The notes under the pieces: model-generated
What the model saw: the letters and a program-made list of their open reading frames with translations, nothing else
What the model was told of the DNA's origin: nothing
Database searches by the model: none
Shown: positions 1 through 6,759 of the stretch, in pieces
Position numbering within the stretch: position 1 is the stretch's first letter
Layout of the letters: every line of letters starts with the position of its first letter
Assembly: GCA_023228865.1 (NCBI GenBank)
Contig: JALOAH010000149.1
Location: 1 to 6,759 of the forward strand
Direction: 5' to 3'
DNA from: Porticoccaceae bacterium
Lineage (GTDB): Bacteria; Pseudomonadota; Gammaproteobacteria; Pseudomonadales; Porticoccaceae
DNA: 6,759 nucleotides
Translations under genes and position numbers: made by a program

Positions 1-359
1 TGGTGTCGCGCTTGATCAGTACTGGCTCACTGCTCGATAAAGGATACCTGTTCTGGGACGAACCGGAAACGAGCCTGAATCCGCGCCTGATCAAGTTGAT
101 TGCACGAATGATCTGTCATCTCAGCAAGCAGGGCATTCAGGTGATTCTAGCGACACATTCCCTATTCCTTCTTAGGGAGCTGGAAATTCTTGGGGGTAGC
201 AAGGAGTTCTCTGACATTGAAAAGCGCTTCTTTGCATTGAGGCCGGGCTCCGACGGTGTGGAAGTAGAGCAGGGTGATGTGCTGGAGGATTTGCAGACAT
301 TGGTGCTGCTGGATGAGGAGCTCGAACAATCTGACCGCTTTATGGAGGTCAGTGACTGA
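1..359 (+). CDS. AAA/ABC-type (OLD-like) ATPase, C-terminal part, 5' end outside window
   Basis: This is the last ~119 codons of a P-loop ATPase whose N-terminal part, including Walker A, lies upstream of the window. The frame is open to the left edge, so the GTG at position 3 is probably an internal valine and not a start. Visible motifs are Walker B with the following D-loop (YLFWDEPETSLNP, about residues 15-27 of the fragment) and the H-switch (ILATHS, about 48-53). This pattern, with WDEPE and ATHS, is typical of AAA_15/AAA_21 OLD-like ATPases found in defence systems such as Septu and Gabija. The tail after the H-switch is short (about 65 residues) and has no TOPRIM nuclease domain. The effector may therefore be the nuclease-like protein encoded one base downstream, which is an inference. 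The ATPase call is secure; the exact subfamily is not. Confidence 0.85.
   Translation, partial: VSRLISTGSLLDKGYLFWDEPETSLNPRLIKLIARMICHLSKQGIQVILATHSLFLLRELEILGGSKEFSDIEKRFFALRPGSDGVEVEQGDVLEDLQTLVLLDEELEQSDRFMEVSD
344..348 (+). promoter_or_regulatory. Ribosome binding site for the PD-(D/E)xK gene
   Basis: GGAGG lies 12 bases upstream of the ATG at 361, inside the last codons of the ATPase gene. The spacing is slightly long but no better start is nearby. It supports translational coupling of the two genes. Confidence 0.5.
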
Positions 360-360
360 T

Positions 361-870
361 ATGCAGGAGCTTGTTGAAGGGACGCTGATGTTTACTTTTC
401 CGGACCCCTTGAAAGCGCAGCAGTACGATGACTGGTCGTTCTACCGTAATCAGTTCAATAGTACTTTTGGTGGTACCAAGGCGGTGGACTTTATCTGTCT
501 GGATCAGCAGTGCACCTGGTTGATTGAGGTCAAAGACTACCGCGCCCACCAGCGCACCAAGCCCAGTGAGCTGGGAGATGAAGTAGCGGCCAAGGTAAGG
601 GATACACTGGCAGGATTAGTCGCCGCTAGTTGCAATGCGAATGATCTGGATGAGCGTCGTTTTGCGGCAAAAGCGGTGAAGAGTAAGTGTTTGCGTGTGG
701 TATTACATATTGAACAACCGCAGAGACCTTCAAGGTTGCGTCCTCAAGTGGTGAATCCTACTGACTTGGTTATGAAGCTGAAGCAGTTGTTGAGAGCAGT
801 CGACGCTCACCCATTGGTTGTAAGCCAACATAACTTAAAACCATATATGCGCTGGCATGTAAAAGGATAA
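361..870 (+). CDS. Small PD-(D/E)xK nuclease-like protein paired with the ATPase
   Basis: The protein has 169 residues. The sequence KAVDF (40-44) followed by WLIEVKDYR (53-61) gives the D-x12-E-V-K signature of PD-(D/E)xK nucleases, with D43, E56 and K58 as candidate metal-binding and catalytic residues. A conserved-looking aromatic stretch [10 protein letters not shown] (23-32) precedes it. The helical part after it (about 70-105) and the strand [10 protein letters not shown] (111-120) fit a compact single-domain nuclease fold. No signal peptide or membrane segment is present. The start at 361 is one base after the ATPase stop, and the stop is seven bases before the DUF499 start, so it is the middle gene of a tight operon. 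It could be the DNA-cutting subunit working with the upstream ATPase, which is an inference. A catalytically inactive or DNA-binding role cannot be excluded. It resembles unnamed proteins found beside AAA ATPase genes in proteobacteria; I know no gene name for it. Confidence 0.8.
863..867 (+). promoter_or_regulatory. Ribosome binding site for the DUF499 gene
   Basis: AAGGA lies 10 bases before the ATG at 878 and overlaps the last codons of the preceding gene. This indicates translational coupling. Confidence 0.55.
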
Positions 871-877
871 TCGAAGC

Positions 878-3733
878 ATGAGCTTGAAGCCCTGGCGGGA
901 AATCGCCCGCCCCCATAGAGACGTCCTGGAAGGCACTTTCAAACAGTCCGAATTTGCCGCTGACATCACTCAGGTCGCTACGGGTACCGCACCTCCGGAG
1001 TACCAGGATGCGGAGATGTTCTTCGCCCGTACCTTTATCACTGAAGGTATGCGTTTGTTGCTGATCTCCGTGGCGGAGCGTTTGGCAGGCAAGGGTGGCG
1101 ACCCGGTGGTTCAGCTGCAAACCGCTTTTGGCGGTGGTAAAACACACACCATGCTGGCGGTATTTCACTTGGCGAGCCGTAAGGTGAGCACCGACAAGCT
1201 GATGGGCATCCCGCCCATTCTGGATCAGGCGGGTATCAGCGAGTTGCCCAGAGCCCGCATTGCCGTACTGGACGGCATTCGTCAGTCGCCCAGCCAGCCA
1301 AACAGCTATGGTTCCACCATGGTGAACACCCTGTGGGGCGAGCTGGCCTGGCAACTGTTGGGTGAAGAAGGCTATGCCCTGGTGGCAGATAGCGATGCCG
1401 ATGGTACTTCCCCCGGCAAGGAGGTACTGATAGCTCTGCTGACCAAAGCAGCACCCTGCGTGATTCTGATCGATGAATTGGTGGCCTATATTCGCCAGCT
1501 CGAGCTGGGCAAGCAGTATAAGGGTGGCACTTTTGACAGTAATATCAGCTTTATCCAGGGCCTGACCGAGGCGCTGAAGGCGGTACCCAACGCCATTTTG
1601 TTGGCCTCCTTGCCCGAGTCCGAACTGGAAGTGGGCGGTACCATGGGCCAGCGCACACTGAATTCACTGGAGACCTACTTCGCTCGCGTAGAGTCTGTGT
1701 GGAAGCCAGTGGGCTCCAGTGAAGCTTTCGAGATTGTTCGGCGCAGGCTGTTTGATAGCGCCGGGGAACGAGCGCAGGTTGAGGGTATCAGTCGCCAGTT
1801 TTCGGATTTCTACCGGCAACACGCAGAAAAGTTTCCGGTTGAAACCCAGTCCAACGAGTATTTCGAAAGGCTGTGCGCCTCCTATCCCATTCACCCTGAA
1901 GTGTTCGACCGGCTGTATGAGGACTGGTCCACGCTGGACAAGTTTCAGCGCACCCGAGGGGTGTTGCAGTACCTGGCGATTGTCATCCACCGCCTGTGGA
2001 ACTCGGACAACAAGGATGCGCTGATCATGCCCGGCTCGCTGCCGCTGGAAGACAGTAATGTCCGCAACAAGTCGATTCACTATCTGCCCCAGGGCTGGGA
2101 GCCGGTGATCGAAAGGGAAGTGGATGGCCCGCGCTCGATCCCCTATGACATCGATGGCCACCATACCCTGTTTGGCGGTGTCCAAGCTGCCAGGCGCACA
2201 GCTCGCACTATTTTTCTCGGTAGCGCCCCTTCTTCGCAAGAGCAAATGGTTCGCGGTATTCAGGCCGAGCGCATTCTGTTGGGCACGGTGCAACCGGGAC
2301 AAACCATCGGCGTATTTGAAGATGTACTCAAGCGCCTGCGTGATCGCTTGCACTACCTGTATGCCGAGCAGGACCGCTTTTGGCTGGACACCAAACCGAA
2401 CCTCCGCCGCGAGATGGAAAGCCGAAAACAAAATCTCAGCGAGCGGGATGACGTCATTCCTCTGTTGAAAGAGCGCGTTACCCGCGTATTTGGTCGTACC
2501 CACCATTTTGCCGGGATTCATGTGTTCACGCCCTCGGTAGATATACCGGACGACTACGGCTCAGGCCCTCGTCTGGTGGTGCTGCCACTGAATGCTGGCT
2601 ATAGCCGTACCGAAACCAATCAAGCCTATGGCGAAGCAGAGAAAATTCTGCGTAATCGGGGGGAGCAGCCGCGCCAGAAGCAGAATCGCTTGATTTTTCT
2701 GGCTCCTGATTTTGATGGAATCAGCCGCCTGAAAGATCAGGCAAGGGTCTATCTCGCCTGGCGTTCCATCGTGATGGATATCGAAAGCGGCACGCTCAAT
2801 CAGGACCTGTCTCATCTGAATCAAGCCAAGCGCAACCGGGATGCGGCAGACCAAACTCTGAGCCAATTGATTCGCGAAACTTGGAAGTGGCTCGTTGCCC
2901 CGATCGAGGACTTTGTCAAAGGCCGCTTGGCGCTGACCTGGGAGGCCGTGGTTATTCCGCCGACGGCTCCCAACTTGGTTCAAAGCATTGAAGAGAAGCT
3001 GCGGGAGGAAGAGTGGCTGGTTTATGAATGGTCGCCGATCCATCTGCGCAAGGTACTTACGGATTGGTATCTGAAGGATGGCGTCAAGGAAGTCAGCGCA
3101 CTGAAAGTGTGGCAAAACAGTTGTCATTACCTGTACCTGCCGCGCCTGGTAAACGACCAGGTGTTTCGCAACGCGATTGCTCAGGGTGTGGAAACACAGG
3201 ATTACTTTGGCTTCGCCTCAGGTAAAGAGGGCGATCGGTACCTTGGTTTTAGCTTCGGAAATGGCTCAATCGCTGCGTTGGATGATACGTCACTACTGAT
3301 TGATAGAGAGGCTGCGGCTGCATACGCGGAAAAGCTGCGCCAGGCACAACAACCGCCGGTAACAGATCCTGATGGCGCCACTTTCGATGAAAGTCATGTA
3401 GGCGGATCGTCAGCTGACACTGACAACGCGGCCAAACCGCGTGAAGGTGATGCCCAGGGTAGCGTTGGCGGTGTACGAGAAAGCGTAAGTACAGCACCTA
3501 AAACTCGCTTCTATGGGACGGTGGATCTGGATGCGCTGAAGGCCAAGATGGAATTTGCCACCATCATGGACGAAATCGTCCAGCAGTTTACTGCCCAGTT
3601 GGGAGTTGAGGTCACCATCTCCGTTGAGATCGAAGCTCGCAAGAAAGGCGGCTTTGATGAGTCGTTGCAACGCACTATTAAGGAAAACAGCAATGTCCTG
3701 AAATTTAGTTCTTCAGAGTTTGAAGAGGATTGA
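878..3733 (+). CDS. DUF499 family AAA+ ATPase, predicted defence-system component
   Basis: This 951-residue cytoplasmic protein matches the DUF499 (COG1483-type) predicted ATPases in length and layout. The N-terminal family signature is [14 protein letters not shown] (3-16). Next is the P-loop [14 protein letters not shown] (77-90), where K88 and T89 bind nucleotide. The first glycine of the usual GxxxxGKT is replaced by threonine, which appears normal for the family. Walker B is CVILIDE (194-200, D199 and E200). A long helical middle region follows. A hydrophilic, low-complexity linker spans about 822-876. A compact C-terminal domain (about 877-951) begins [11 protein letters not shown] and contains an alternating strand [11 protein letters not shown]. 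Family members occur with adenine methylases (for example DUF1156) and helicases in restriction-like anti-phage loci, and I recall a described distant link to BrxC/PglY of BREX. No methylase is in this window. Here the gene follows the ATPase and nuclease-like genes directly, which suggests one functional complex. The family call is firm; the role in defence is inferred from context. Confidence 0.9.
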
Positions 3734-3821
3734 CCTTAATGGGAGCTGAGAGAGAGCCATAAAGCTGCTGCTGTCGCAGAGAAGTTATCGTGGACACTGG
3801 GTTTTGTTTAATCTTCACTGT

Positions 3822-3826
3822 AGGGG
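3822..3826 (+). promoter_or_regulatory. Ribosome binding site deciding the start at 3835
   Basis: AGGGG sits eight bases upstream of the ATG at 3835. An in-frame GTG at 3790 would add 15 residues but has no comparable site, so 3835 is preferred. Confidence 0.65.
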
Positions 3827-3834
3827 AATCAGTT

Positions 3835-4506
3835 ATGAACTCGAACCAAAGTAGTGGTGGAAAAGAGCTGATTCGCTCAGTGTGCACTAGCGGTGCAGGT
3901 ACTATCGCTTTAGATGGAGCCGAGATGGCGCTGGATTCTATGTTGGATGATGGGCTGCTTCGAGATATCCCAATATTTGGTTGGGTTGTAAAGATTTATG
4001 GGGCGTATCAGGGCATTAAAGAAAGAATTTTTTTGAAAAAGATATGTCGTTTCTTAGGGGCAGCACAGAAGACTACTGAAGACGAAAGGCGATTATTTTT
4101 AGCACGAATGGAAGCTGATCCAGATCACCAGAAAAAGGTGGGTGAAGGAGTTTTGCTGCTCATTGATCGCCATGAAGACTCAGGGAAGTCTGAACTCTTG
4201 GGGAGAGTATTTGCATCGTATATAAAAGACGAAATTACCTATGAAGAGTTCCAGCGCTATGCATTCATAATAGATAAGCTTTTTTTGAAAGATCTTGTAG
4301 ATTTAGGTCAATACTACACGAAGCTTGGTGATTTTGAAGAATCTAGAAAGAGGGGGGATAAAGTGCGACTTGGTCAATTCCTCGAAGAAATGACAATCCA
4401 GACACTTTTAGGTATCGGGCTGCTTGACTCTGAAGGCTATATCGAGACTAAATTTAGTCGCAATGAGCGTGGGGATAAGCTGATCAGCATACTTAAGGGT
4501 AAGTAA
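3835..4506 (+). CDS. Uncharacterised 223-residue protein with hydrophobic segment and winged-helix-like tail
   Basis: I do not recognise a named family. The N-terminal part has small residues and then LDSMLDDGLLRDIPIFGW (33-50), leading into a moderately hydrophobic stretch (about 41-60) that could touch or enter a membrane. A basic segment FLKKICRFL (66-74) follows. The middle (about 80-165) is predicted helical, with LLLIDR (107-112), LLGRVFASYIKDEITYEEF (121-139) and IIDKLFLKDL (145-154). The last ~35 residues (LLGIGLLDSEGYI, then ERGDKLISIL) resemble a winged-helix end of the LxxLGLL...TxxGxxLI type. Similar unnamed proteins with a DGxLKDIPIxG motif occur scattered in bacterial genomes. 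The gene is visibly richer in A+T than its neighbours and uses more A/T-ending codons, which suggests a separate acquisition. It lies 101 bases after the DUF499 gene on the same strand and just before a terminator. It could be an accessory or regulator of that operon or an independent cargo gene. Confidence 0.8.
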   Translation: MNSNQSSGGKELIRSVCTSGAGTIALDGAEMALDSMLDDGLLRDIPIFGWVVKIYGAYQGIKERIFLKKICRFLGAAQKTTEDERRLFLARMEADPDHQKKVGEGVLLLIDRHEDSGKSELLGRVFASYIKDEITYEEFQRYAFIIDKLFLKDLVDLGQYYTKLGDFEESRKRGDKVRLGQFLEEMTIQTLLGIGLLDSEGYIETKFSRNERGDKLISILKGK

Positions 4507-4699
4507 AATATTAGAAACATTTTCATACTTTAGTTTGTAAATGAATGGCTGGGATGAGAGTTGGTTGTCTACAAAAATGAAAAGTGTTTTGGAATTCCGA
4601 GACCTTTCGGTCTCGGCGTACTTTTTTCAGTCTGACCTGGTTGTTTGTTGTTCATAGTAGCTACAACGGAGTTGGTTTTCAGTGTTGAGAAAGACGTGC
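4507..4699. other. Gene-free strip between converging units
   Basis: This A+T-rich interval separates the plus-strand cargo from the minus-strand backbone. I see no convincing gene. It holds the terminator at 4597-4627 and a 9-base direct repeat GAGTTGGTT (4558-4566 and 4669-4677). The palindrome GTAGCTAC lies at 4657-4664. It is a plausible location for the cargo/backbone boundary. Confidence 0.5.
4597..4627 (+). terminator. Rho-independent terminator ending the plus-strand unit
   Basis: The perfect 8-bp stem CCGAGACC/GGTCTCGG (4597-4604 and 4609-4616) has a four-base loop TTTC. Six T residues follow at 4622-4627, after a five-base spacer. It lies 90 bases beyond the stop of the 223-residue gene. 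The T-run is on the plus strand only, so it should mainly stop plus-strand transcripts. Confidence 0.75.
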
Positions 4700-4774
4700 T
4701 TAAAGCAGTCCTCTCTCCGCAAAGCTCACTGAACTCGCACCACCAATAACCAAATGATCCAGCAGCCTCACATC
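4700..4774 (-). pseudogene. radC: 3' remnant of a radC-type gene fused in frame to yqaJ
   Basis: The last ~23 codons of the yqaJ reading frame encode LLDHLVIGG and then VSFAERGLL followed by TAA. This is the characteristic C-terminus of RadC/JAB-domain proteins of mobile elements (consensus LLDHxVxG...VSFAERGLL). Nothing else of RadC remains: the JAMM metal-binding motif (HxH...SxxD) is absent. The match begins immediately after the YqaJ-like sequence VTGKQTADV, so the join is near codons 174-177 (about 4766-4777). A short shared sequence around the DV codons, present in both families at this point, may have served as the crossover. The remnant supplies the stop codon for the chimeric gene. 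Confidence 0.8.
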
Positions 4775-5296
4775 AGCGGTTTGCTTGCCGGTCACCGCCA
4801 ATTGGTGCATCACTTGGACCTCGACATACTTGGGTACCCCGTCACGCCACAGTCGAGCGCCATTGAGCCCCGCTGTTTTGCACTCCAGAATCTGCACCTC
4901 GCCACTGCCGACCACCTCCCGGTCGATATTGGCCAGCATCCAGGGGATATCCGGGTGTTGCAGAATGGCGTTGACCCTGCGCACCTTCAAGCCAGTACGG
5001 CGCTGGTACTGGGCGGCCACCACCGGTTCCAGCACCACGCCCCAGAATACCGGTGCGGTGTCATCGTCCGGGTCGGGTTTGGCAAGTCCCTGATCTCGGT
5101 TGGTCTTCTCCAGCCACAGCTCCAGCTGCGATTTGTAGGGATTGAGGCCGATAGCCGCCGCTGCGTCACTGCTGCCGATGCCGGTTTGCCGTACCTTGAG
5201 CCATTTCTCACTGCTCAGGTCTTTGGTGGACACCAGACGAAGCGCCGGAAGCGCTTGGCTACGGGCTTGGGTAGGGGCAGATGTAGGTGTACTCAT
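4700..5296 (-). CDS. YqaJ-family (lambda-exonuclease-like) recombinase, C-terminus replaced by RadC tail
   Basis: YqaJ enzymes are 5'-3' DNA exonucleases that work with a single-strand annealing protein in phage- and plasmid-type recombination. This copy has 198 residues, against roughly 300 or more in relatives on mobile elements. The core motifs are present: RQTGIGSSDAAAAIGLNPY (36-54), FWGVVLEP (84-91, E90), MLANIDREV (120-128, D125), ILECK (136-140, E138 and K140) and YVEVQVMHQLAVTG (157-170, Q161 and Q165). These match the E/D/ExK metal centre and the conserved glutamines, so the active site is probably intact. After residue 175 the sequence switches to a RadC C-terminus and stops. The usual helical C-terminal region is lost, so stability or oligomer formation may be affected. 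The ATG at 5294-5296 has GGGAG (5305-5309 on the minus strand) eight bases upstream. It follows the DUF932 gene with a 73-bp gap that contains a hairpin. No annealing protein gene is visible. Confidence 0.85.
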   Translation of the reverse strand: MSTPTSAPTQARSQALPALRLVSTKDLSSEKWLKVRQTGIGSSDAAAAIGLNPYKSQLELWLEKTNRDQGLAKPDPDDDTAPVFWGVVLEPVVAAQYQRRTGLKVRRVNAILQHPDIPWMLANIDREVVGSGEVQILECKTAGLNGARLWRDGVPKYVEVQVMHQLAVTGKQTADVRLLDHLVIGGASSVSFAERGLL

Positions 5297-5369: not shown

Positions 5370-6338
5370 TCAAGCGGCGAGGCGTGTCGCTTCTTCGAGG
5401 GCTTTCTGTTTCAAACTGGCACCGACGCCAAACCAGGCTGAATCCAGACGGTAATCCGTGTTCCTCGCCCGGCGCTGGTGATCCACATACTCTGTGACGG
5501 CGCTCAATAGGCCGTAGGCAGTGCCTTTGGCCGATACCAGATCAGAGCCCATGCCCTTGCCGTTGAACAGGCTCAGCACGGTAGCTTTGGCCCGCTCGTG
5601 GGGTTTACTGCCGTTGGTGGGCGGGGGCGCCGTCGGGTCAGTAAAAACGCGGTCGATGAACTGCAAGGCTTCCTTATTCTTGACGCGGCGGTGGGAGAGC
5701 GTTTTCAGCCGGTACATAAACTCATCCCAGGCCGAGACCGAGATACCCAACTGCTGTTTGACAGCGTCAGGGTCGAATACCGTGTTGTGACGTACCTTGA
5801 CAGCATTGACGGCCCCTGCCGTTGCCACGGCCAGGGTGTTGTTGCACACCACGCGGATACTGGTGAACTGCGCTGTGGTGGCCATGCTGCCGTCACAGGC
5901 GGTCGCCAGCAGGACATAGGCGTTGGTCTGGTCGTTGCCACCCAGCACGCCGGTTTGACCGGTACGGGCAAGCGCCCACAGCTTGCGCCCGCCCTTGAGC
6001 ACACCGGCGGTATCCAGCTCGAACCCTGACTTTTCGGTCAGATCGCGATAGAACTCCAGGATCTCGCGGGGCTGTACCACCTTATACCGGTTCCCGACGA
6101 CCGACAGTGGCGCTCGATTGTCGGAGCGGAACAGTACTTTGTGGTCGGGGTAGGACAGGATCTGGCTGAACTCATCGCTGGCATCAGCGGTGAAGTGCAC
6201 CGGACTTTCGAGAATGTCCCAGTCCATGCCCGCCTGGCGGGACCAGACATCAATGGATTGTCCTTCGGCAAGCCGGTTGCCGAGGCCATGCCAGGGTGTG
6301 CGGCCCACATAGGCCATGGTTTCAACAAGATGTGCCAT
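5370..6338 (-). CDS. DUF932 (TIGR03299-type) phage/plasmid-like protein
   Basis: The protein has 322 residues, normal for the family. Recognisable blocks are TPWHGLGNRL (14-23), VLFRSDNRAPLSVVGNRYK (68-86) leading into VVQPREILEFYRDL (87-100), and GGRKLWALARTG (116-127). YVLLATACDGSMATTAQFTS (141-160) and IRVVCNNTLAVA (161-172) follow, the most conserved stretch of these proteins. The C-terminal part has NGKGMGSDL (259-267) and TAYGLLSAVTEYVDH (273-287). No signal peptide or membrane segment is seen. Members are carried by plasmids, integrative elements and phages, often next to recombination genes; their biochemical role is not established. The start at 6338 is chosen because AGGAGA (6347-6352, minus strand) is eight bases upstream. 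A start at 6365 would add nine residues in front of that site and is unlikely. The next gene in the same direction is yqaJ, 73 bp on. Confidence 0.9.
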   Translation of the reverse strand: MAHLVETMAYVGRTPWHGLGNRLAEGQSIDVWSRQAGMDWDILESPVHFTADASDEFSQILSYPDHKVLFRSDNRAPLSVVGNRYKVVQPREILEFYRDLTEKSGFELDTAGVLKGGRKLWALARTGQTGVLGGNDQTNAYVLLATACDGSMATTAQFTSIRVVCNNTLAVATAGAVNAVKVRHNTVFDPDAVKQQLGISVSAWDEFMYRLKTLSHRRVKNKEALQFIDRVFTDPTAPPPTNGSKPHERAKATVLSLFNGKGMGSDLVSAKGTAYGLLSAVTEYVDHQRRARNTDYRLDSAWFGVGASLKQKALEEATRLAA

Positions 6339-6346
6339 GAGGTATC

Positions 6347-6352
6347 TCTCCT
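6347..6352 (-). promoter_or_regulatory. Ribosome binding site for the DUF932 gene
   Basis: AGGAGA on the minus strand is eight bases from the ATG at 6336-6338. It decides between that start and the in-frame ATG at 6363-6365, which lies upstream of it. Confidence 0.75.
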
Positions 6353-6369
6353 GTGTAAACGGCATAAAT

Positions 6370-6459: not shown

Positions 6460-6759
6460 TTAGAAGGTGAGCCCGCAGTCCAGGCATCGATGACGCAGGG
6501 GGCTGCTAGCCTTGAGGTCGTTGGCGATGCGTTGACCGGCAATGTACCCGGCGATGCCGCCCGCAGCGGCACCAAGAAGCGCTGCGGATGCCATGCCGAG
6601 AGCCCCGCCCAGCGGGAGGGGGCCGAGAATGCGGGTAAGCGTCCAACCCAGCCACCTGTTCACGGCGCCTAAGCTACGCCATCCTTCGGGTTTTTCTTGC
6701 GGAGGAACCCCATGGAATCCATTGATGATCGCCGCCTCTTCTGGGCAGAGCATGTCCGG
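6460..6759 (-). CDS. Small glycine-zipper membrane protein, possibly cut at its N-terminus by the window edge
   Basis: From the ATG at 6751-6753 the protein has 97 residues. The frame stays open to the edge, so a start further upstream is possible and the ribosome binding site cannot be checked. The N-terminal third is soluble (EEAAIINGFHGVPP, 5-18). Next comes a hydrophobic small-residue stretch, LGGALGMASAALLGAAAGGI (48-67) and AGYIAGQ (68-74). Its spaced glycines and alanines are typical of a glycine zipper, which often means one or two membrane passes. The tail has one CxxC pair (C90 and C93 in RCLDCGLTF), too little on its own for a full zinc ribbon. I do not recognise the family. It lies on the same strand as DUF932 with a gap of about 120 bp holding a hairpin, and is probably a backbone gene of the mobile element. 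Confidence 0.65.
   Translation of the reverse strand, partial: PDMLCPEEAAIINGFHGVPPQEKPEGWRSLGAVNRWLGWTLTRILGPLPLGGALGMASAALLGAAAGGIAGYIAGQRIANDLKASSPLRHRCLDCGLTF

Follow-up and report, generated by a model that had tools for sequence, protein, structure and literature searches.

Homologues of YqaJ and RadC have been described in many members of a group of genomic islands that carry variable defence cargo and are moved by jumbo phage, and the sections of that study considered here also describe an IntY integrase, AlpA and insertion beside tmRNA (PMC12595487). In the part of a second study considered here, GI-Hotspot 9 of Pseudomonas aeruginosa (LESGI-1) is bounded by a YqaJ-like gene and has Hma in its cargo (PMC12629846). 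The window analysed in this work, a stretch of 6,759 nucleotides making up positions 1 to 6,759 of contig JALOAH010000149.1 from a Porticoccaceae bacterium, resembles both. As far as these partial descriptions allow a comparison, it shares with the first group YqaJ and RadC next to defence cargo, here as remnants of both genes, and with GI-Hotspot 9 a defence cargo including Hma beside a YqaJ-like gene, the other boundary of the hotspot (kinase) falling outside the window. Unlike the islands in the sections considered, the window has its YqaJ-RadC part deleted; the island ends lie beyond the window.

The remnant of the two genes is a single open reading frame of 198 amino acids on the reverse strand, running from an ATG at 5296 to a TAA at 4700. 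Its first 176 codons (4769–5296) belong to YqaJ: the whole Pfam YqaJ profile (positions 1–150 of 150) matches residues 31–172 with an E-value of 1.2e-45 and 155.9 bits against a cut-off of 22, and TIGR03033 of NCBIfam matches residues 25–177 with 151.4 bits against a cut-off of 68.05. The fusion thus scores above the domain cut-offs of the YqaJ/lambda-exonuclease family in both collections, and it stays below those of RadC. The Pfam RadC profile is matched at its C-terminal end (90–121 of 121) by residues 165–197 with 17.7 bits, under the cut-off of 22.1, and two NCBIfam RadC models match residues 170–197 and 160–198 at their last positions, likewise under their cut-offs (20.2 against 180 and 19.3 against 133.85 bits). 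The last 22 codons and the stop (4700–4768) are assigned to radC by these matches and by direct comparison. Ten RadC copies, taken from nine loci, agree with the last 22 residues at 17–20 positions, whereas ten YqaJ relatives agree at 1–2 positions over their collinear stretch and shuffled sequences (10,000 per comparison) at no more than 10. The division of one open reading frame between YqaJ and RadC is well outside chance expectation, which bears out the in-frame chimera reported by the first-pass annotation. In an in-register DNA comparison with ten yqaJ and ten radC copies, the fusion is yqaJ-like up to codon 176 and radC-like from codons 177–180 on, which places the switch at about 4769–4774, that is at codons 175–176 (GATGTG).

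Compared with complete YqaJ/lambda-exonuclease proteins (PF09588, TIGR03033; structures 3syy and 1avq), the fusion has the whole Pfam domain and the core positions, but its YqaJ sequence stops at residue 176, so that a strand and a helix of the fold are missing, and it ends in a RadC tail. With RadC (PF04002, TIGR00608; structure 2qlc) it shares its last 22 residues, but about 140 N-terminal residues are gone together with HNHPSG, which we take to be the metal-binding motif of RadC. No H[NS]HPSG occurs in any of the six frames of the window.

The fused frame converges with the defence cargo on the forward strand. At the window edge lies the truncated 3′ end of a HEC-02B-like ATPase gene (3–359; PADLOC 196.6 bits, profile positions 227–342 of 344), followed by a HEC-02A-like gene (361–870; PADLOC HEC-02A 266 bits, residues 31–197), for which the open reading frame is listed as 274–870 and the in-frame ATG at 361 suits the start of the match at residue 31. 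The next gene (878–3733) encodes the DUF499 ATPase HmaC of the Hma defence system (PADLOC 1600.5 bits over residues 1–950); HmaA and HmaB, the other members of Hma, would have their positions outside the window. These PADLOC matches confirm that the fusion adjoins defence cargo. The last cargo gene (3790–4506), of 238 codons, is matched by no family of Pfam, PADLOC or NCBIfam and may be an unrecognised cargo component. Between it and the fused frame is a terminator-like hairpin on the forward strand (4597–4616; an 8-bp stem, then a T run); the region has four sites of this kind and shuffled sequences have 2.1 (sd 1.5), which makes the hairpin a pattern only. On the other side, also on the reverse strand, a DUF932/TIGR03299 phage-plasmid-like gene (5370–6365; Pfam E-value 1.1e-72, NCBIfam 383.6 bits) lies upstream of yqaJ, and a small glycine-zipper-like frame (6460–6753), with a weak Pfam match under the cut-off, lies upstream of DUF932. 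Several relatives give weak tblastn matches to the latter at the equivalent place.

Intact counterparts were found in a scan with one genome per species, which gave 22 loci, and in three additional loci (L023–L025). In all of the 22, DUF932 stands no more than about 3 kb upstream of YqaJ, and the C-terminal region of YqaJ is kept in all 25 loci, which are longer than 5 kb and carry a YqaJ core. RadC was found at an E-value of 1e-4 within the stretch fetched in ten of the 22 (L002–L009, L019 and L021) and in none of the other 12; the four-gene order is therefore not universal. Where RadC is present, nine loci share the order DUF932, YqaJ (about 335 amino acids), a Gp3/recombination-directionality-factor-like (RDF-like) gene and RadC, and in L021 RadC stands ahead of the RDF-like gene. 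The nine loci belong to records named Halopseudomonas or Pseudomonas and to one gammaproteobacterial metagenome-assembled genome, with L002 and L009 coming from one strain. The first-pass annotation had placed CobS/CobT-like genes among those normally separating the two; this finds no support in the nine loci, where tblastn detects the Gp3/RDF-like gene in every one (Pfam PF18897 was tested on L003 only). We take “RDF-like” as a Pfam label only. In locus L006 a tmRNA gene (2181–2536) precedes the DUF932-YqaJ module by about 6 kb, and insertion beside tmRNA is what the considered part of the island study describes (PMC12595487).

Between the points joined in the fusion, the distance is nearly constant in eight of the nine loci (1,906–1,990 bp) and reaches 3,592 bp in L005 because an insertion splits the radC of that locus. 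In the same eight loci the first radC is open, encodes 157–171 amino acids and has the HPSG motif. Within L005 (12025–14132) the insertion follows about residue 72, which makes the radC of this locus, like that of the window, a broken one at this boundary.

We consider it likely that one deletion of about 1.9 kb brought YqaJ residues 1–176 into frame with the final 22 residues of RadC, and that the product is an inactive remnant of a nuclease. A deletion was already the simplest reading in the first-pass annotation, and the comparison with islands that keep both genes, which it had proposed, strengthens that reading through the separate genes and their near-constant spacing. The ancestor of the window would have had separate yqaJ, RDF-like and radC genes as the relatives do, and one deletion would have taken 158 C-terminal residues of YqaJ (counted on the relative P0002), the Gp3/RDF-like gene and about 140 residues of RadC (counted on L003). 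At the junction zone, yqaJ and radC of single relatives have 3–6 nucleotides in common in register. In four of the nine loci (L006, L007, L009 and L019) these are the 5–6 nucleotides GATGT or CGATGT, and in the other five they are 3–4; the second radC of L009 also gives 5. A short GATGT-like repeat may thus have given rise to the deletion through slippage or end joining, and an origin by microhomology is plausible, its exact length and the repeat being read from relatives because the ancestor itself was not found. The in-frame join is no evidence of selection, since it would be expected by chance in one of three cases.

The retained part of YqaJ is well preserved. At 72 columns that are invariant in 36 YqaJ relatives, the fusion has a single change (V111I), compared with 0–2 changes in intact YqaJ controls, in agreement with the earlier statement that the motifs are retained. 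The catalytic residues presumably lie within this conserved core, as placed by lambda exonuclease. No decay of the retained part beyond the deletion was seen; therefore, either the deletion is probably recent or the fusion protein is still under selection.

The lost part is conserved as well, with 55 of its 158 positions conserved at 90% or more, and it appears to belong to the fold. The nearest full-length relative among the matches listed, P0002 (332 amino acids, 91% identical over 90%), has a predicted model with strands at 171–178 and 182–189 and a helix at 192–210, with ten-residue pLDDT means of 91–94. LHK-Exo (3syy) aligns to residues 27–214 of this model, and lambda exonuclease (1avq) to residues from 14, 17 or 20 up to 214. 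The YqaJ part of the fusion is equivalent to residues 1–174 of P0002 and ends inside the first of the two strands. Judged by this predicted structure of a relative, the strands and the helix taken by the deletion are part of the lambda-exonuclease fold, and the fold through the strand pair and the helix after the glutamine helix is incomplete in the fusion. Lacking the remainder of the first strand in the last pair, all of the second and the helix that follows, the YqaJ part is predicted to fail to fold as a working exonuclease, and the function of RadC is predicted to be lost along with its metal-binding motif. The structure prediction of the fusion itself is poor, with a mean pLDDT of 45 from an alignment of 19 rows, and the difference in alignment depth (19 against 34 rows) confounds any comparison of it with the full-length model; a mixed alignment (A2) was left out because it wrongly placed YqaJ pieces against the RadC tail.

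Of the two outcomes offered by the first-pass annotation, a shortened but active exonuclease or a decaying gene, we favour the non-functional remnant due to the loss of strands and helix of the fold and of a conserved region. It is unlikely that the product is a shortened active nuclease in which a strand-turn-strand of the RadC tail stands in for the lost YqaJ hairpin. The clean frame and the 71 of 72 core positions kept would agree with it, as would the alignment of the tail with the end of the solved RadC structure 2qlc, which we take to be a strand-turn-strand. However, the lost part, conserved as described, lies on the relative's model within the lambda-exonuclease fold, and in the poor model of the fusion the tail reaches pLDDT values of only about 24–28 and shows no strands.

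The join could also have arisen by exchange of cargo, if illegitimate recombination brought into yqaJ a cassette that carried a radC 3′ end of its own; this we regard as improbable. The genes past radC do vary among relatives in a way that suits it, with DUF499 in L002, a type I restriction subunit in L008 and, after the second RadC, a type III-like restriction gene in L009, and the two radC copies of L009 suit it as well. However, locus L025 of Aeromonas caviae (NZ_AP026896) already has Hma facing separate genes, so that a plain deletion suffices. There PADLOC finds HmaA, HmaB and HmaC, a complete Hma, and HmaC, 65% identical to that of the window, is convergent across two small open reading frames with RadC, two more open reading frames, the RDF-like gene, YqaJ and DUF932, all separate.

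Three observations concern these loci in their own right. The two radC copies of L009 (12069–14716) stand near the cargo edge, the second one encoding 212 amino acids without HPSG and matching just the later part of the RadC profile. A small related open reading frame follows radC in four of the eight loci looked at (L003, L004, L006 and L009), so radC lies close to the border of the variable part without always forming it. A HEC pair stands directly before HmaC both in the window (3–3733, HEC-02) and in L025 (50–11665), where PADLOC assigns HEC-01, not HEC-02, between HmaB and HmaC; a slot inside Hma seems to hold exchangeable HEC gene pairs. The record NZ_AP026896.1 is filed as a plasmid, and its size of 4.9 Mb suggests a chromosome.

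A combined scenario, in which the hairpin swap produced a compact nuclease with changed activity and the Hma island became fixed in place through loss of the RDF-like gene, appears very unlikely.

Recurrence of the chimera in other genomes, which the first-pass annotation had proposed to test, was not seen among the matches listed in the protein searches and the survey of genomes. A search with the full protein found 6,785 relatives, and our figures rest on the best 120, fusion included. A search with residues 140–198 found 1,645 proteins, of which 120 were listed, and none of the ten matches read was a RadC fusion (P0138, P0178 and eight shorter or truncated proteins). The highest coverage after the fusion among the matches listed was that of P0138 (97%) and P0178 (95%). 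P0178 is a full-length YqaJ. P0138 (203 amino acids, longest contig 306,737) has a separate internal deletion of YqaJ, with ADVAVL joined to a C-terminal GGSVSWKRSK...GSRRF. Because this deletion begins about three residues past the same ADV as the junction of the fusion, this stretch of YqaJ may undergo deletion easily or may tolerate it. A survey covered 398 genomes of one family; matches occurred in 135, and none among the matches listed crosses the join: the YqaJ parts end at residue 179 or before, and the stretches reaching residue 198 begin at residue 143 or later and are RadC tails. Among viral contigs there were two distant relatives, and a 40-base stretch at the junction had no exact copy there; in a distant-mode DNA search no record in the plasmid and phage collections covers 80% of the window in one place. 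Among the titles listed from the literature on YqaJ, RadC, DUF932, defence hotspots, HEC-02 and Hma, none described a YqaJ-RadC fusion. Within the scope of these searches, the fusion stands as a private deletion variant in a genomic setting that is already known.

The fusion protein is a singleton on short contigs, as an assembly or amplification artefact might be, but it is highly improbable that the junction arose in this way. It is found on two contigs, the longer of 7,420 bases, which may not be independent, and the at most 6 nucleotides in common at the join in relatives are probably too little for a k-mer misjoin. A natural YqaJ subfamily with this ending and no link to RadC was rejected as having practically no likelihood, since the RadC signatures tested were in none of the 119 other relatives listed (of 6,785), and in the search with residues 140–198 the fusion scored 116 bits against 77 for the next match listed.

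In conclusion, the fusion has the look of an evolutionary scar, not of a new system. Due to the fact that the protein is probably just a remnant, its wider significance is small and the case is one of ordinary biology. The cargo genes seen (HEC-02 and HmaC) are without damage comparable to the fusion, so the event would have damaged the recombination module of the island, not its defence genes. The fusion is thus a clear case of a recombination module breaking beside variable defence cargo while the cargo seen stays open, and, should excision require the RDF-like gene, deletions of this kind could lock mobile defence islands into their hosts.
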